A program made the translations under genes and the position numbers. A stretch of 24,888 nucleotides of DNA from positions 1 to 24,888 of the IMG/VR virus record IMGVR_UViG_3300030118_003244. One strand, 5' to 3'. Of the stretch, positions 10,104-17,740 are shown piece after piece. This DNA is from a virus. The notes under the pieces are model-generated. The model was not told where the DNA came from and did no database searches. It saw nothing but the letters and a program-made list of their open reading frames with translations. Within the stretch, counting starts at the first letter, position 1. The number at the start of each line of letters is the position of its first letter.

Positions 10104-10748
10104 TTAAGATTTCCAAAAATTCATAGCGTTAATCAAGTAATCAGGGTCTAGTTCACTCTTCCATTTAAAATTTTCAAAATCCGGTTGAATGTAATCTTTG
10201 ATTACTTTAGCTTCATTACTTATAGATAATAAATTTTGCCTTACCTTACACCTTTGAATAAAGTTTGGTAGCCTAGACATAATACTTTCCGGCTTTAAAT
10301 ATTCGTAATTATCGGCATGAAAAACTTTAAAACTTTCTTCATTTATATAACAAATATAAATTGGTAATCCGGTAGCGTAATGGTAAAAATCCGTTTGCAA
10401 TAAATGGTCGCTTGTTGGTGCATCAGGAAGTTTAGAAGTAAGCCATGATCTAGTACCGTCTTTCTTTACCCTACCTCTTTTAGGAAACTTACATTTATCC
10501 TCTATAATCATTTTACCTTTTAAATCGGCGTAGCCATGAACCGGAATTTCAATACCGTCAAATACTTTAAAGGTTTCTATTTCCGGCTTACATTCTTCAA
10601 AGTTAGGTATAGTTTTGTGTGCTTCATGTCCGTTAATAATCATTCTTTCAACAATTTCGCAAAAATGATTATAAGCGTCTAGTTCTATTGGATCAGGTAT
10701 TAAGGCTTTTAGCTTATCATTAACCGGTACAAAATTACTGTTGGACAT
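10104..10748 (-). CDS. RecB-like PD-(D/E)XK exonuclease, catalytic part
   Basis: This is a 214-residue protein. GYADLKG (D75), IIEDK (E83-x-K85) and LLQTDFYHYATG (Q118-x3-Y122) are the D, ExK and QxxxY motifs of RecB/lambda-exonuclease-type nucleases. The C-terminal half (YLKPES, then RCKVRQNLL) matches phage exonucleases of about 300 residues that start with LSPSQLTKP. That N-terminal part is missing here but is encoded by the separate gene near 13600. It probably resects DNA ends for annealing by the protein at 12652. It overlaps the XRE gene by 14 bases. GGAAG upstream gives its own weak ribosome site. Confidence 0.75.
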   Translation of the reverse strand: MSNSNFVPVNDKLKALIPDPIELDAYNHFCEIVERMIINGHEAHKTIPNFEECKPEIETFKVFDGIEIPVHGYADLKGKMIIEDKCKFPKRGRVKKDGTRSWLTSKLPDAPTSDHLLQTDFYHYATGLPIYICYINEESFKVFHADNYEYLKPESIMSRLPNFIQRCKVRQNLLSISNEAKVIKDYIQPDFENFKWKSELDPDYLINAMNFWKS

Positions 10749-11079
10749 TTTTAACTTCCCATTCCGGCTTTAGTATTAATGGTTCTTCTAATTGTGGTAT
10801 AAAAAAAGACAATGGTTTTTTTAAATATCTAGCTACAGAAACTAATTTATCTAGAGGTATTTTATTTTGTGCTTTTTCGTATTTTTGAATTTGCTGGAAT
10901 GTAATCCCTATTGCTTTACCTAGTTCCGTTTGGGTTACAAATTTACATGGTATTTTTCTAGTAGGATTCATTGGGTAAATATTTCGGCTAACATTAGTTC
11001 TAGCTTCTAATATTTTTTTTCCAATGTGTTTATAAAGTTCTAAATCGTCTTCTACGGTATGTTTTCTATGATTGTTCAT
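10735..11079 (-). CDS. XRE-family transcriptional regulator
   Basis: This 114-residue protein has a Cro/C1-type helix-turn-helix at about 49-79 (TQTELGKAIGITFQQIQKYE) followed by LDKLVSVARYLKKPLSFF, a pattern typical of alphaproteobacterial XRE proteins. GAAAGGAAAC before the ATG sets the start. A perfect 10-bp inverted repeat lies 58 bases upstream and may be its operator. It could be a repressor controlling early genes. No integrase is in view, so lysogeny cannot be claimed. Confidence 0.8.
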   Translation of the reverse strand: MNNHRKHTVEDDLELYKHIGKKILEARTNVSRNIYPMNPTRKIPCKFVTQTELGKAIGITFQQIQKYEKAQNKIPLDKLVSVARYLKKPLSFFIPQLEEPLILKPEWEVKNVQQ

Positions 11080-11136
11080 GTTTCCTTTCTTTTAAGAGAT
11101 AAATTCCCTACACCCTAAATTCAACTTTCAATTTGT

Positions 11137-11161
11137 ATAGTATTTTAAGTAAAAATACTAT
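11137..11161. promoter_or_regulatory. perfect 10-bp inverted repeat, candidate XRE operator
   Basis: Arms ATAGTATTTT (11137-11146) and AAAATACTAT (11152-11161) are exact complements around AAGTA. The repeat lies upstream of the XRE gene (start 11079) and covers the stop of the 34-residue gene at 11145. No T-run follows on the minus strand, so a terminator is unlikely. The core AGTATT-N9-AATACT recurs with the same spacing at 19672-19692. Confidence 0.5.
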
Positions 11162-11249
11162 CTTGTTTTTGTTCCATATCAGCAATCTTTTCATGCAAGA
11201 CAGGTAATTTTTCTTGGTACTTACGAATCATTCTTTTATGCTTATTCAT
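11145..11249 (-). CDS. 34-residue basic peptide
   Basis: The ATG overlaps the stop of the upstream gene (ATGAATAA, eight bases). The peptide begins MNKHKRMIRKYQEK and looks like one amphipathic helix with a short polar tail. Nothing is recognised. The tight coupling and the lack of any other gene here favour expression. Confidence 0.45.
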   Translation of the reverse strand: MNKHKRMIRKYQEKLPVLHEKIADMEQKQDSIFT

Positions 11250-11502
11250 TAGAAGCACCCATCTGTCTTTCTTTGCTTTCAGATCCCTGATTTGTTTGGG
11301 ATTTATCGTCATCATTATCCTTACTGACTATTTTTATATTTGCCCCAAGAAAACGCTTGTCAGTAATATTTATTATAGCGTCATCTTTAGGTGTTTTTTG
11401 TTGATATGCTTTTTCCGTAGCTTCTTCTACGGTTTTGCCAACAAAAAATTCTTTAAAATTAACAACTAATTCTTGTAAACTGTTTTTTTCTACTTTAGCC
11501 AT
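11242..11502 (-). CDS. hypothetical protein of the early minus-strand operon
   Basis: This 86-residue protein has an ordered-looking first 60 residues (LVVNFKEFFVGKTVEEATEK, then ITDKRFLGANIKIV) and a polar Asp/Ser/Gln-rich tail. It overlaps both neighbours by eight bases. Function unknown. Confidence 0.6.
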   Translation of the reverse strand: MAKVEKNSLQELVVNFKEFFVGKTVEEATEKAYQQKTPKDDAIINITDKRFLGANIKIVSKDNDDDKSQTNQGSESKERQMGASNE

Positions 11503-11725
11503 TTAATTCTATGTTTCGTCTATATCCTTTTAAACGCTTTATTTCTTTTCTTTGTTCTAACTTATTAATTAATACCGTTACCGAATTTTTACTTTTAAAT
11601 TCTAATGCATCAGCCATTTCTTGATAAGTTGGATAATACTTGTTCTTTTTGACATATTTTTTAATAAAATTCAATAGTTTCATCATTAAAGGAGTCATTG
11701 GAACTTTTATTGTATCATTAGCCAT
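11495..11725 (-). CDS. LexA-like winged-helix DNA-binding protein
   Basis: This 76-residue protein consists of the LexA N-terminal type winged helix only: TPLMMKLLNFIKKYVKKN, then YPTYQEMADAL, then SKNSVTVLINKLEQR and the wing. The LexA autocleavage domain is absent, so it cannot self-cleave. It is probably a small transcription regulator of the phage. It overlaps both neighbours by eight bases. Confidence 0.7.
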   Translation of the reverse strand: MANDTIKVPMTPLMMKLLNFIKKYVKKNKYYPTYQEMADALEFKSKNSVTVLINKLEQRKEIKRLKGYRRNIELNG

Positions 11726-12023
11726 CTTTTTCTTCCATTTTAAGATTTCTATTTAATTCGTTATACCCATTGATGTCATCATAGGTATCTTTTTTATATT
11801 TTTTATTAGTTATTGAACGCCATAATTTAACAATAGTCATGCAAACGCCGAAGATATTGTTGGGACAACGAACTTGATAACCATTAAAAGCCGAAAGAAT
11901 ATTTTCTAACATGCCTTTAAAAACATAGCTTGTAGAACTAAAACTTCCGTATTGTTCTTGTTTTTCTTTCAAAAGTTTTTCAAGTTCTTTTGATATTTGA
12001 TTTATATTTTTAATATTACTCAT
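11718..12023 (-). CDS. DUF6378-like small protein
   Basis: This is a 101-residue helical protein with the pattern EKQEQYGSF, a middle helix, CMTIVKLWRSI and a final DTYDDINGYNEL. It resembles the phage domain DUF6378 (YG near the start, K-x-x-R in the middle, D-x-x-D-x-x-x-Y at the end). That family is uncharacterised, and its shape recalls all-alpha nucleotide pyrophosphohydrolases, but this is only a hint. It overlaps its neighbours by eight bases. Confidence 0.55.
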   Translation of the reverse strand: MSNIKNINQISKELEKLLKEKQEQYGSFSSTSYVFKGMLENILSAFNGYQVRCPNNIFGVCMTIVKLWRSITNKKYKKDTYDDINGYNELNRNLKMEEKDG

Positions 12024-12291
12024 GTCCTAAATCATAATTAAGTTGTTCTTCATATCCCCAATAATAATTACCATTAATATCTTTACAATAATGACCGAAC
12101 ACATGATATTTTTTGTAAGTAACATAGGTTAAAGGTTCATAAAGTTTATGGTTTTTATTATCTACAAATTTAACATTACTATAAAATGCTTCTTCACAAG
12201 TTATAGGCCTTAATGTAAATCCAATAGGTATTTTAATTGCAGCATAACTATCGCCAACAATTACCAATAAATACAAAAAGAATATTTTCAC
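12016..12291 (-). CDS. small secreted protein, GTG start
   Basis: This 91-residue protein has a signal peptide (MKIFFLYLLVIVGDSYA, with a likely cleavage after SYA). The mature part holds two cysteines and many aromatic residues (YWGYEEQLNYD). The GTG start overlaps the previous TAG by one base and has no ribosome site, so it probably depends on translational coupling. An exported protein in an early operon may act on the envelope, for instance in exclusion, but this is speculation. Confidence 0.55.
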   Translation of the reverse strand: MKIFFLYLLVIVGDSYAAIKIPIGFTLRPITCEEAFYSNVKFVDNKNHKLYEPLTYVTYKKYHVFGHYCKDINGNYYWGYEEQLNYDLGHE

Positions 12292-12671
12292 TAAAAGTCA
12301 AAATCATTATCGTTTTGTTTTGGTTGTTGTTGTGGTTTATCTTGGGGGTCATTTTGATAACCGGATATATTAGGTTTTTCCGATTTATCATTTAACCAAC
12401 CAATTAAACTTTTTTGATTAGGGGCAACTTCCGGTGCATGTAAATTTCCGGTAAATTTATTATCATCGCCTTTAAATAATACACCTACTTGTGCAAATAT
12501 TCTTATAAATTTAGTTCCCTTTTGCGAAGTACCTTTTGAACCTAGTATAGTTCCTTTTTCGCCATTCGCTAATTTTGTATTACCGGAAAAATCTATTTTT
12601 ACCGCTTTAGGGTTATTAGCGTCATAAGGAAATAACACCCAGTCTTTTTGCTTACCAACCTGATTTGACAT
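12291..12671 (-). CDS. SSB-like protein with acidic C-terminal tip
   Basis: The ATG at 12671 follows GGAGG by five bases. A longer frame opening at 12683 would merely translate that ribosome site. The 126-residue product has a beta-rich N-terminal domain (to about 100), a Gln/Pro-rich linker (QDKPQQQPKQ) and a tip NDNDFDF. A flexible linker with an acidic, Phe-ending tip is the hallmark of single-stranded DNA-binding proteins, which use it to recruit partners. No OB-fold motif is provable by eye. It lies next to the annealing-type protein. Confidence 0.5.
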   Translation of the reverse strand: MSNQVGKQKDWVLFPYDANNPKAVKIDFSGNTKLANGEKGTILGSKGTSQKGTKFIRIFAQVGVLFKGDDNKFTGNLHAPEVAPNQKSLIGWLNDKSEKPNISGYQNDPQDKPQQQPKQNDNDFDF

Positions 12672-13239
12672 TTTGTCCTCCATTTTGTTTGATTGATTCT
12701 TCTTTCTTTTTAAACAATACTTCTATTTCTTCCTGTCTTGTTTTAAATTTAGAATATAAAGAATTTAGTTTGGTTTGTGTTTTTTGTTCGTCTATTTGTT
12801 TTTCTAAATTATCGCTACTACCTTGTTTTTGATTTAACAACGCATTAGCTAATTCTTCCGCCGAAGCAAATTCCGTACCATGCAGACCAAAACTTGCCAA
12901 GCATCTACCTAAACTTGAAGTAAAAGCATTTTCTAAAGCCGAAGTTTTGTTTATAAAAGTGGCGTTCCTTTTTTCTTCTGCATGTCCGGTACTAAAAGGA
13001 GTATCGCCAATATACAAAGTTGTTTTAGTAATAACTTTATTATCGTCTTGGTAAATTAATTGTTCGTCAATTTTAGATTCCGGAAAAAATTTTAATAAAT
13101 GATTATGTCTTTTTGCAACGGTTAAATATTCTTTACCTTTAAAATCCATTCCTTTTACACTTGTGGCCAATTTATCTATACATTCCTTTCTTCTGTCTTT
13201 AAATGAGCCTTTACTTTTTTCTTCCGTCTTTTGTGTCAT
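12652..13239 (-). CDS. phage single-strand annealing-type recombination protein
   Basis: This is a 195-residue protein. The start at 13239 follows GAAAGGAAAC, the same ribosome site as the XRE gene. The fold-typical motifs are FKGKEYLTVAKRHN, then YIGDTPFSTGHAEE, then NKTSALENAFTSSLGRCLAS, then EFASAEELANAL. These match phage proteins of the Rad52/Erf-like annealing group, in which a TSAxGRxLA helix and ASAEE follow a beta sheet. A coiled, Lys-rich tail follows. With the exonuclease and SSB-like protein it forms a Red-like recombination set. The exact subfamily is uncertain. Confidence 0.6.
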   Translation of the reverse strand: MTQKTEEKSKGSFKDRRKECIDKLATSVKGMDFKGKEYLTVAKRHNHLLKFFPESKIDEQLIYQDDNKVITKTTLYIGDTPFSTGHAEEKRNATFINKTSALENAFTSSLGRCLASFGLHGTEFASAEELANALLNQKQGSSDNLEKQIDEQKTQTKLNSLYSKFKTRQEEIEVLFKKKEESIKQNGGQNVKSGW

Positions 13240-13462
13240 GTTTCCTTTCATTTTGATTTTTTTGATCTATTTCTTTTAATGCTTTTGCATGAATGTAACT
13301 TTGATTTTTTGCAACTTCTTTTTCTTTTTTTTCGTATTTATCTAATTTCTTTCTTAGTTCGGTAATTTCTTCGTCCCTTTGTCTTAATAAACTATCTTGT
13401 TTCTTTTGTTGCTTTTGGTAGTTTCTATTTTCGGTTTGTAACTTAGCTATCTCTTTTAGCAT
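13211..13462 (-). CDS. small coiled-coil protein
   Basis: These 83 residues are nearly all heptad-like and charged (ITELRKKLDKYEKKEKEVAK). AAAGGA upstream gives a good start. It overlaps the upstream gene by 20 bases. No family is recognised. It may be an adaptor between recombination proteins. Confidence 0.6.
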   Translation of the reverse strand: MLKEIAKLQTENRNYQKQQKKQDSLLRQRDEEITELRKKLDKYEKKEKEVAKNQSYIHAKALKEIDQKNQNERKHDTKDGRKK

Positions 13463-13694
13463 CTTTTTTTCCTTTCATAACTTCGCTTATAGATAACTTA
13501 TGAACTATCATGTCTTGCATAGCCCTACCTACAATACCACCAAAAATCATTCGCATATTAGGGGGTCGCTTTTTCCTATCTTTTTCGTCAAGAACGCAAT
13601 AGTCGTTAAACCATTGGTCTATCGGTTTAGTTAATTGAGAGGGAGAAAGATGATCTGCCGAAAAGCAACCCCCATCTTTCTTATGCAGCCACAT
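13443..13694 (-). CDS. N-terminal part of a RecB-like phage exonuclease, separate gene
   Basis: These 83 residues from ATG 13694 (after AGGTAAA) hold DHLSPSQLTKPIDQWFNDY, then RMIFGGIVGRAMQDMIV. An upstream ATG at 13757 would add 21 hydrophobic residues. LSPSQL, W...Y and a G-x-x-x-x-x-x-x-Q helix normally begin phage PD-(D/E)XK exonucleases. All catalytic motifs are absent here and occur in the protein at 10104-10748. It heads the minus-strand operon. Its last codons double as the ribosome site of the next gene. Confidence 0.6.
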   Translation of the reverse strand: MWLHKKDGGCFSADHLSPSQLTKPIDQWFNDYCVLDEKDRKKRPPNMRMIFGGIVGRAMQDMIVHKLSISEVMKGKKDAKRDS

Positions 13695-13757
13695 TTTACC
13701 TATTTTTATAAGCATTGATTCGGACACTAATACAAATATTGTAAAAAAACAATACAT

Positions 13758-13798: not shown

Positions 13799-14098
13799 AT
13801 GGACTTGCGATTCATTAATTATAAAAAAAAACGAATCAAAGTTAGTTGGGAAAATTGCGGAGACTGTCATGCAATATTTTACCCTAGTACACTTGAACTT
13901 CGAATCAATCCTAAATTATCAAAACAAATGTTGGCTAAAACTTTATTCCATGAACTTTGGCATATCATTTGTTGGGTAAATAAAATTAACATTAATAAGA
14001 TTGGCGAAGAAAAAACAGCGTTATTAGCAGAAGAATTTATTCCAATATTAAAAAGGAATAACAAGCTAAAGAAACTAATTAATGAATATTTACGGTGA
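13799..14098 (+). CDS. HEXXH metallopeptidase-like protein
   Basis: This is a 99-residue protein. LFHELWHIICW gives the zinc-binding H51-E52-x-x-H55, and a following helix with GEEKTALLAEEF can supply the third ligand (E70/E71), as in IrrE/ImmA-type gluzincins. It has no DNA-binding or membrane domain. ImmA-type enzymes cleave phage or mobile-element repressors. The XRE and LexA-like regulators here are possible targets, but no link is proven. The start probably lacks a leader. Confidence 0.65.
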   Translation: MDLRFINYKKKRIKVSWENCGDCHAIFYPSTLELRINPKLSKQMLAKTLFHELWHIICWVNKININKIGEEKTALLAEEFIPILKRNNKLKKLINEYLR

Positions 14099-14099
14099 T

Positions 14100-14297
14100 A
14101 TGAGGATTTGCGTAAAATGTAAGAACCATGCAGACGTAGTTGAAAATGGTAAAGACTATTGCGCTGAATGTTGGTGGGATAGTTTTTCAAATACCGGCGT
14201 TAAATTAGAAGACTACCACAAACAAGAAGACAAAACAAAGGAGCAAGATAATGATTTTAAAAGAAAAACCGATATTAAAAGATTCGAAGAAGTATAA
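14100..14297 (+). CDS. zinc-ribbon small protein
   Basis: The first half carries two CxxC knuckles (RICVKC and YCAEC), a classic four-Cys zinc ribbon, and the second half is charged and disordered. ATG 14100 follows the upstream stop. An in-frame ATG at 14082 would add six residues and overlap that gene. Its 3' end overlaps the methyltransferase gene by 47 bases and contains that gene's AAGGAG. Function unknown. Confidence 0.6.
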   Translation: MRICVKCKNHADVVENGKDYCAECWWDSFSNTGVKLEDYHKQEDKTKEQDNDFKRKTDIKRFEEV

Positions 14298-14808
14298 AAT
14301 AATTTATGCTGACCCACCTTGGTACTTTAAAAGCTATTCTAAAAAAGGCGAAGATAGAAACGCAACCAATCATTACCCTTGTATGGAGTTCAATGATTTA
14401 TTGGCTCTTAATATCAATGATATTGCTGATGTGGATTGTTGTTTGTTTATGTGGGTTACTGATCCTTTTTTGGAAAAATCTTTTGAACTACTTAAACAAT
14501 GGGGATTTAAATATAAAACAATCGCTTTTACTTGGGCTAAAAAAAATAAAACAAATGATAATTTCTTTATGGGATTAGGTTATTGGACTAGGGCTAACCC
14601 TGAAATTTGTTTGTTAGCTACAAAAGGAAAACCAAAAAGATTTTATAAAAATGTAAAACAATTAGTTATTGATAGCCGTAGGGAACATTCAAGAAAACCG
14701 GATATTATTAGAACTAACATTGTAAATCTTTGCGGCGATTTACCTAGAATTGAATTGTTTGCTAGGCAAAAGGTTCAAGGTTGGGATTGTTGGGGTAACG
14801 AAGTTTGA
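14251..14808 (+). CDS. MT-A70 family adenine-N6 DNA methyltransferase
   Basis: This 185-residue protein transfers methyl from S-adenosylmethionine to adenine. The catalytic motif YADPPW is at 19-24. YWTRANPEICLLATKG, REHSRKPD and PRIELFAR with a final GWDCWGNE are the signature of phage and bacterial MT-A70 enzymes. AAGGAG ten bases upstream fixes the start. Length is normal for the phage type. It may protect phage DNA from host restriction or mark it for regulation. Confidence 0.88.
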   Translation: MILKEKPILKDSKKYKIIYADPPWYFKSYSKKGEDRNATNHYPCMEFNDLLALNINDIADVDCCLFMWVTDPFLEKSFELLKQWGFKYKTIAFTWAKKNKTNDNFFMGLGYWTRANPEICLLATKGKPKRFYKNVKQLVIDSRREHSRKPDIIRTNIVNLCGDLPRIELFARQKVQGWDCWGNEV

Positions 14809-16083: not shown

Positions 16084-16174
16084 AATGTTTATAAATAATA
16101 CCTTTTGAAGATAATATATTTCTTAATGTTAATTTAGCTACTTCTTCAATATTTATTTTTTGTTGTAGTTTCAT
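15995..16174 (-). CDS. 59-residue hypothetical protein
   Basis: AAAGG seven bases before the ATG supports this start, which lies 29 bases inside the preceding methyltransferase gene. The product begins MKLQQKINIEEVAKLTLRNI, continues SSKGIIYKHYENK, and has a Lys-rich, less structured end where it overlaps the 45-residue gene. Function unknown. Confidence 0.45.
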   Translation of the reverse strand: MKLQQKINIEEVAKLTLRNILSSKGIIYKHYENKIKKKSFCKDFDKSILQITNNQTQKG

Positions 16175-16787
16175 TCTTTAACCTTTCTTTTATTACATGC
16201 GATACTTCTTCTTGTATTTCCGAACCAACCCAATTACGATTATTATTACTACAAGCTATCGCCGTTGTTCCGCTACCCAAAAACGGATCATAAACTAAAT
16301 CTTTTTCTTCGGTAAAACTTTTTATAAATGTTTCGCAAATTTCTACCGGCATAGAATTTTTATAGCCGCTACCTTTTACCATAAATAAATCTTGTAATAT
16401 TTTTTTATTTTGTGGTTGCTTTCTTTTACCTTGTGAAAAAGTAATTAAATGTTGATAAGGTAATTTATATAAATCAATCTTTGTTGTTTTTATCCATAAC
16501 TTATAACTATAAACATTCCAATCAAGGCTAGTAAAAGCGTCAATAACCGCTTTATGTTTTGGAATGATACCGCCGTTTGCTTTCCTATCGGTAATGCAAA
16601 TAGTTACAAAGCCGCTAATAGGATTAAAATTTTCAATAAAAGGTTTTATCCATGTATAATAACTATCATTTAAAACTAAACCTATTTCGCTAAAGTCTGG
16701 CGGCGAAGTAATAATATAATTATATTTAAAATCTTTATTTGTTAAGCGTTCGTAACAATCTTCTATATAAAATTTATTAATTGTCAT
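16146..16787 (-). CDS. N4/N6 DNA methyltransferase, beta-class order
   Basis: This is a 213-residue protein. The catalytic motif comes first (IITSPPDF, 25-32) and the S-adenosylmethionine site last (DPFLGSGTTAIACSNNNRNWVGSEI, from 167, shown here in part as DPFLGSGTTA), the order of the N6_N4_Mtase family. The catalytic motif is normally (D/N/S)PP(Y/F/W), and here Asp follows PP with Phe one later, which may be a clade feature or a loss of function. ATGA overlap with the methyltransferase upstream suggests they act as a pair. Confidence 0.75.
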   Translation of the reverse strand: MTINKFYIEDCYERLTNKDFKYNYIITSPPDFSEIGLVLNDSYYTWIKPFIENFNPISGFVTICITDRKANGGIIPKHKAVIDAFTSLDWNVYSYKLWIKTTKIDLYKLPYQHLITFSQGKRKQPQNKKILQDLFMVKGSGYKNSMPVEICETFIKSFTEEKDLVYDPFLGSGTTAIACSNNNRNWVGSEIQEEVSHVIKERLKNETTTKNKY

Positions 16788-17740
16788 ATTTTTTGAAAAA
16801 CTAATACGTTTTGATGTATCTTAACAACCTTTCTATTTTTCATAGACGTTGAAGCCCTTACACTAGCCGAACCGATAGCATTTAATAAAATGATTTCATT
16901 GTAGAACTTCATTCCACATTTAGTAAAAGCCCTAATGGTGTCCGGCACAAAGCCGTAAAAATGGCCTTTCTTGTCCCTAAATTCACCCACAACAAAACAA
17001 GCTAGTTCTCCTTGTTTTAATAAATTGCATGATTTCGCAATTATTGATTCGTAAATTTTTAAAAATTGTGGGTATTCCATGTTGGAAATATCGTCTTGCA
17101 TATCGCTATAAATTTCTAAATTACCATAAGGCGGACAACTAAAAATAAAATCGTAGCTTTCTATTTGGTTACTTGTTACGCCGTCTTTTAAATTATCTAA
17201 AATTTTATTACTATCGCCAACAATCCAATTTGGCTTTTTATCTTTTTCTTCAAAAATTTTGTCCGCTTGTAGTTTATTGCTTTCAACTTGTTCCGGCCGT
17301 AATTCAATACCGGTATAATCATGGCCTAAAGTAGCCGCAACAATACCCCTAACCGAACCACCTGCGAATGGGTCTAATATCCTAGAATTTTCTTTGGGAC
17401 AAAACCAAGTATAGGCCAATTCACAAACAACAGGGTCAAATATACTATGTTCGCCAACGTCTAATATTCTTTGCGTAGATTCGGCCGGTTTCTTTCCGCT
17501 TCGTTCGGCTTGTCTATGCCTACCGGCAAAGTGAGCACCGTCAACTTTCCGCCCTAATTCGCTTTCTATACCTAACGCTTTCCATTTATTACGTCTTCTT
17601 TGCCAAGAACCTTGTTTGGTATCAAATACCGAAAATGGCGGTTCTATGTATTTGTCCCTTAATTCAAATTTTTTTGTTACTTCATTACCAAATAAATCTA
17701 CTTGAATAGTTGGTTCTTCTTGTTTAAAATTATCCGCCAT
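16784..17740 (-). CDS. phage DNA methyltransferase
   Basis: This is a 318-residue protein. The N-terminus has EPPFSVFDTKQGSWQRRRNKW and then LGIESELGRK, an element of a phage methyltransferase group. The S-adenosylmethionine site LDPFAGGSVRG (122-132), GIELRPEQ and the catalytic SCPPYG (201-206) are intact, with SAM site before catalytic motif. The start follows AAAGGGTGAAAC. It overlaps the second methyltransferase by four bases. No cognate restriction enzyme is adjacent, so it is probably a protective or regulatory enzyme. Confidence 0.82.
   Translation of the reverse strand: MADNFKQEEPTIQVDLFGNEVTKKFELRDKYIEPPFSVFDTKQGSWQRRRNKWKALGIESELGRKVDGAHFAGRHRQAERSGKKPAESTQRILDVGEHSIFDPVVCELAYTWFCPKENSRILDPFAGGSVRGIVAATLGHDYTGIELRPEQVESNKLQADKIFEEKDKKPNWIVGDSNKILDNLKDGVTSNQIESYDFIFSCPPYGNLEIYSDMQDDISNMEYPQFLKIYESIIAKSCNLLKQGELACFVVGEFRDKKGHFYGFVPDTIRAFTKCGMKFYNEIILLNAIGSASVRASTSMKNRKVVKIHQNVLVFQKI

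Follow-up and report, generated by a model that had tools for sequence, protein, structure and literature searches.

A PD-(D/E)XK nuclease probably encoded as two chains at opposite ends of a recombination module in a SAR11-phage-like virus

Several phage enzymes are known to be encoded in pieces, among them NrdA of phage Aeh1, DNA polymerase 43A/43B of Aeromonas phages, and the large subunit of T4 topoisomerase (PMC2988022). The pieces of Aeh1 NrdA and of the Aeromonas phage polymerase reassemble, and two of the known split enzymes have been shown to be functional; in the cases described, the pieces are parted by the insertion of a homing endonuclease or by a short intercistronic stretch (PMC2988022). 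The locus described here lies in the virus record IMGVR_UViG_3300030118_003244 of IMG/VR, a 24.9 kb record with SAR11-phage-like gene content, all 24,888 nucleotides of which form the window of this analysis. On its minus strand, a module of eleven small genes runs from 13757 to 10104; the first gene encodes a protein that we call the N-half and the last a protein that we call the C-half. Our combined results make it very likely that these are the N- and C-parts of one RecB/RecE/Cas4-type PD-(D/E)XK nuclease, that the gene underwent a single ancient fission, and that the two chains assemble into an active enzyme.

The C-half is the 214-residue open frame at 10104-10748 (minus strand), and it carries D75, E83-x-K85, and Q118-x3-Y122 exactly as the original prediction had described, together with C-terminal helices. 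This is the D ... E-x-K ... Q-x3-Y motif series of RecB/RecE/Cas4-type exonucleases. The N-half is a small basic protein whose open frame reaches 13757. It had been predicted to be an 83-residue protein starting at 13694; its relatives share the conserved start MLxKIGKxW, and the start is therefore probably the ATG at 13715, which gives a protein of 90 residues (13443-13715, minus strand). An H-[LF]-SPSQ...W...Y...R segment is present in the N-half, as is a helix, G59-x2-V-x4-Q67, at the motif-I position of RecB/Cas4 nucleases. The suggestion that it lacks catalytic residues goes too far: the D, E, and K are missing from it, but it does carry this helix and conserved residues of the nuclease.

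Searches of Pfam, PHROGs, and NCBIfam with each half alone gave nothing usable, so profiles built from relatives were needed: one from 15 split N-half sequences and one from 19 split C-half sequences, both run against all reading frames of the collected loci (29,939 open reading frames, or ORFs). An N match preceding an adjoining C match was found in 87 of 89 single-chain ORFs. The N profile matched single-chain nucleases at their N-terminus, mostly with E values of 1e-11 to 1e-5, and in the single-chain protein of phage C72C1 the C profile matched directly after the N match (E value of 1e-33); the halves thus map onto a single ancestral chain without overlap. The family to whose N-terminus the small protein aligned was thus that of the C-half nuclease and not a different one. 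The residues D75, E83, K85, Q118, and Y122 were invariant in 23 aligned sequences (17 split C-halves and 6 single-chain proteins), and in the N-half H22, S24, Q27, W35, Y39, R47, G59, and Q67 were 98-100% conserved among 61 split and 59 single-chain sequences, with H22, S24, P25, S26, Q27, W35, Y39, L42, R47, G59, and Q67 present in at least 95% of both forms. That the two proteins are unrelated, with the resemblance of the small protein to a nuclease N-terminus arising by chance, might be proposed since no database family recognizes the small protein. Against this, the N profile matched nothing in the 29,939 ORFs beyond true N-halves and single-chain nucleases and none of 1780 shuffled controls, and the reciprocal profile, built from single-chain N-termini, recovered 149 of 150 split N-halves. 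Chance similarity is refuted by these searches, and its probability is close to negligible. On the basis of the tandem profile matches, the reciprocal search, and the shared residues, the homology of both proteins to parts of one nuclease chain can be regarded as settled, bearing out the gene fission that had been predicted.

Among annotated phage records, two were matched by both proteins, and they represent the two forms of the nuclease. Phage C72C1 encodes one 270-residue protein (CDS0045) with the matches to both halves in order, whereas in Pelagibacter phage HTVC106P, the only cultivated member of the split group that was found, gp12 and gp22 show the same split as the window. Other single-chain members occur in SAR11 phages, including HTVC028P (gp07), HTVC034P (gp15), Lederberg (Lederberg_44), Skadi, and HTVC010P, where they are annotated as putative nuclease or hypothetical. 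Single-chain forms, SAR11 phage isolates included, are 270-360 residues long, in line with the expectation of one chain of about 300 residues in relatives. When a single-chain protein was used as the query, 19 of 20 records matched at least 91% of it in one piece; HTVC106P alone matched only from residue 82 on, and a second match to this nuclease family was not found in that phage.

Loci from seven IMG/VR scans, one genome-collection scan, and isolate records were compared, and both halves were present in 140 of them (90 distinct DNA sequences). The genome-collection scan contributed one metagenome-assembled contig, which is probably viral and is split as well. In all 140 loci the N-half lies upstream of the C-half, at a distance of 2479-3047 bases, and the gene order is the same: N-half, coiled coil, annealing-like, SSB-like, g12016, DUF6378, LexA-HTH (helix-turn-helix), g11242, g11145, HTH3, and C-half, with the coiled-coil gene and g11145 missed by the profiles in some loci. 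No C-half without an N-half was seen among contigs with clearly enough flank; loci with the C-half alone have too little sequence upstream, apart from two borderline contigs described below, and every contig with only an N-half ends within about 2.7 kb. The nine ORFs that had been reported between the two nuclease parts of the window were confirmed by count. These nine genes could in principle be an excisable insertion that is removed during the life cycle to restore one gene, and in outline the locus resembles known interrupted genes. However, direct repeats were not found at the two edges, and no recombinase, homing endonuclease, or transposase was found among the nine genes, which themselves include recombination genes. 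Moreover, both halves have conserved starts and ends of their own, and the joined form occurs in no contig of the split clade, in which the smallest gap is 2479 bases. We rejected an excisable insertion for lack of edge repeats and of any joined form, and consider it extremely improbable.

In a tree of 57 C-parts, the split forms all fall on one side of one branch (support of 96 in the Shimodaira-Hasegawa-like approximate likelihood ratio test), corresponding to a single transition between the two forms. HTVC034P and Lederberg, which lie farthest out in the tree, have single-chain nucleases, and the single-chain form is therefore ancestral and the split form derived. Since HTVC028P keeps a matching gene order, the order of the module also looks ancestral, with the nuclease gene broken around it. 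A tandem duplication of the module followed by complementary loss, or relocation of the C-part, would each fit this origin. The host of the viruses with the split nuclease is most likely SAR11 bacteria.

The structure models are consistent with a nuclease whose active-site domain spans both parts. PHROG 1706, labeled CRISPR/Cas associated and taken here to be Cas4-like, matches a single-chain member over residues 14-218, across both parts (E value of 5.5e-9). A search of PDB sequences with the combined profile returned chance matches only. The AlphaFold model of this single-chain member has a mean predicted local distance difference test score (pLDDT) of 93.6 and a predicted template modeling score (pTM) of 0.88, and it shows a RecB/RecE/Cas4-type fold; Foldseek matched it to the putative exonuclease 3l0a, AdnAB, Cas4 SSO0001, RecE, and RecBCD, as well as to dozens of viral PD-(D/E)XK exonucleases. 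In this model the N-part forms the first helices, including a long helix at residues 46-64 with the G-x2-V-x4-Q motif, ahead of the catalytic strands. The C-half modeled alone reached a pLDDT of only 74 and a pTM of 0.67, with values of approximately 60 in the region of the active-site strands and near 45 in the C-terminal tail. These models bear on the alternative that the C-half is a complete nuclease by itself and that the N-half has been reused in another role, such as that of a regulator or a decoy. The C-half does hold all of the D, ExK, and QxxxY motifs, and a search with its model still recovers, if weakly, the same putative exonuclease and Cas4 (E values of 7e-3 to 9e-3). On the other side stand the poor model of the C-half alone, in which the catalytic strands are affected as well, and the N-half, which has not drifted but retains the residues that are conserved in single-chain enzymes. 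The two halves also co-occur and codiverge more than any other pair of genes in the module, and we judge the reuse of the N-half beside a self-sufficient C-half to be improbable.

Selection and coupled divergence point in the same direction. Among ten module genes, the ratio of nonsynonymous to synonymous substitution rates (dN/dS) was lowest for the C-half (0.19) and next lowest for the N-half (0.26), and both halves are under purifying selection. The pairwise distances of the two halves showed a partial rank correlation of 0.51, the highest among 36 gene pairs (27 nonredundant loci), which was reached in none of 999 permutations; in a bootstrap over loci, this correlation exceeded that of the N-half with every other gene in 87% of samples. 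The two halves thus couple most tightly even though they lie farthest apart in the module, a pattern to be expected of two chains belonging to one enzyme. In favor of a decaying or inactive relic, one contig (L016) has its C-half frame broken in two pieces, and the motif-I histidine, described below, is lost. Yet the catalytic residues do not vary within the split clade, and the split form occurs in a cultivated phage and in 90 distinct loci. A relic was rejected on the dN/dS values and is highly improbable. The conservation and codivergence of both halves suggest, therefore, that they probably assemble into one enzyme, and a working two-chain enzyme is strongly supported by these two lines of sequence evidence.

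Some observations weigh against a functional two-chain nuclease. The alignment behind the C-half model was different from that of the single-chain model and shallower (28 rows versus 42), and the gap in confidence between the two models is therefore only suggestive. The motif-I helix of this enzyme subtype usually carries a histidine (GxxxH), present in 98% of single-chain members; in the N-half the helix is there and the histidine is absent, being replaced by glycine in all split N-halves (residue 63); nuclease activity may therefore be altered, and the assignment of the split form to this subtype is tentative. The single-chain protein of HTVC028P likewise has glycine at this position, so the substitution may predate the fission. 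Finally, the prediction that relatives would not carry the large protein alone held for all contigs with clearly enough flank, with two borderline cases, L250 and L279, where no N-half was detected in the 3.1-3.2 kb upstream of the C-half; in the clade of L250 the halves lie about 3.05 kb apart.

Taking these points together, we propose that the nuclease gene was split once, anciently, and that the N-part kept its place as the first gene of the recombination module while the C-part came to close it, nine genes downstream. The chains would most likely join after translation into one active nuclease, with the first helices and the motif-I helix of the N-half packing against the catalytic sheet that the C-half provides, and the assembled nuclease would resect DNA ends for the neighboring annealing protein. 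With lower probability, the split may have been kept because halves at opposite ends of the operon act as an AND gate: end resection would have to wait for transcription and translation of the whole module, in which the two regulators and the annealing and single-strand-binding proteins are encoded as well. We speculate that, with the halves at the two ends of a compact module inside which no terminator was found, the enzyme could not form until the module had been fully expressed. The scan for promoters was uninformative, with counts the same as in shuffled sequences. Coregulation by operon order, as previously proposed, fits the compact, overlapping, and invariant arrangement of the genes.

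The other genes of the module, all on the minus strand, include a putative recombination pair and two regulators. The annealing-like protein (199 residues, 12652-13251) matches phrog_11717, of unknown function (E value of 3e-23), and HTVC028P gp09 (E value of 3e-11), its homolog, which lies shortly after the single-chain nuclease of that phage with one small ORF between; its counterparts are a Sak annealing protein in C72C1 and an ERF protein in HTVC034P. The adjacent SSB-like small protein (130 residues, 12291-12683) had no family match in the Pfam and PHROG library searches and is named by position, the gene at the equivalent position in C72C1 matching a phage SSB. As no library names either protein, both labels rest on synteny: the annealing and SSB-like genes of the original prediction agree with position and gene order but have no direct family match. 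The two predicted regulators were recovered by family searches as a LexA-type winged-helix protein of 76 residues (11495-11725; LexA DNA-binding PF01726, E value of 1e-9) and an HTH_3 (Cro/CI-type) protein of 114 residues (10735-11079; PF01381, E value of 4e-9), and the latter gene shares its last 14 bases with the beginning of the C-half gene. A DUF6378-like protein of 101 residues (11718-12023; PF19905, E value of 4e-5) is encoded by a gene common to the single-chain phages HTVC028P, HTVC034P, and Lederberg. The remaining small genes encode a fast-evolving protein of unknown function (91 residues, 12016-12291), a conserved protein of unknown function (86 residues, 11242-11502), a lysine-rich protein whose position is conserved (56 residues, 11145-11315), and a variable, lysine-rich coiled-coil protein (83 residues, 13211-13462) that is absent from C72C1.

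The coiled-coil gene, which lies between the N-half and annealing-like genes, was present in every split locus inspected and is fast evolving; its product might serve the two-chain enzyme as an accessory protein. HTVC028P has a different ORF of 52 residues with a hydrophobic C-terminus at this position. At the place expected for the N-half or the coiled-coil gene, directly before the annealing-like gene, contig L279 carries a gene resembling PAPS (phosphoadenosine phosphosulfate) reductase at the contig edge (1-738). Just beyond the module in the window, two genes lie on the opposite strand: a small one for an SprT/IrrE-like metalloprotease (13799-14098) and one for an MT-A70-type methyltransferase (14251-14808). 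Farther along, at 16146-17740 on the minus strand, two DNA-methyltransferase-like genes overlap; one has an SPP motif followed by a late DPFLGSGTT, and the other has the reverse motif order, with DPFAGG first and SCPPY later.

These findings identify the nuclease that had been missing from the recombination module of a widespread marine phage group, in which both genes are annotated as hypothetical, and they warn that annotation pipelines would take the large half for the whole gene. They also provide a natural case in which the active-site domain of a nuclease is distributed over two chains, stably inherited with nine genes but no mobile element in between, and offer a clean test of whether phages split enzymes by accident, with the result kept by drift, or as a timing device. 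A published account of this split was not found in the literature searched, which is weak evidence given that most subscription journals lay outside its coverage.

Compared with known systems, the locus is closest to HTVC106P, which has the same split and gene order at about 60% identity and shows no difference of substance; in the record of that phage, gp12 and gp22 are both hypothetical and the link between them is unannotated. The nucleases of C72C1, HTVC028P, HTVC034P, Lederberg, Skadi, and HTVC010P belong to the same family and have the same motifs but are single chains of 270-360 residues, whereas here there are two chains whose genes lie about 2.7 kb apart. In the single-chain phages whose gene orders were inspected, an annealing-type gene follows that of the nuclease, with one small ORF between in HTVC028P, which shares the order nuclease, annealing-like, DUF6378, and HTH regulator with the window. 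The RecB/RecE/Cas4-type exonucleases (3l0a, 6ppu, 4ic1, 3h4r, and 1w36) share the fold of the single-chain homolog and the D/ExK/QxxxY order, but they are single chains, and the split clade has glycine for the motif-I histidine. Like Aeh1 NrdA, polymerase 43A/43B, and T4 topoisomerase, this is a phage enzyme encoded in pieces; those are other enzymes, while here a PD-(D/E)XK nuclease is broken inside its catalytic domain, with the motif-I helix parted from the catalytic strands. Unlike Aeh1 nrdA and T4 gene 60, which were split by mobile elements, it has no mobile element among the intervening genes and no edge repeats. As far as the searched literature shows, a split PD-(D/E)XK nuclease whose parts are separated by nine ordinary genes is new among the known split phage enzymes.

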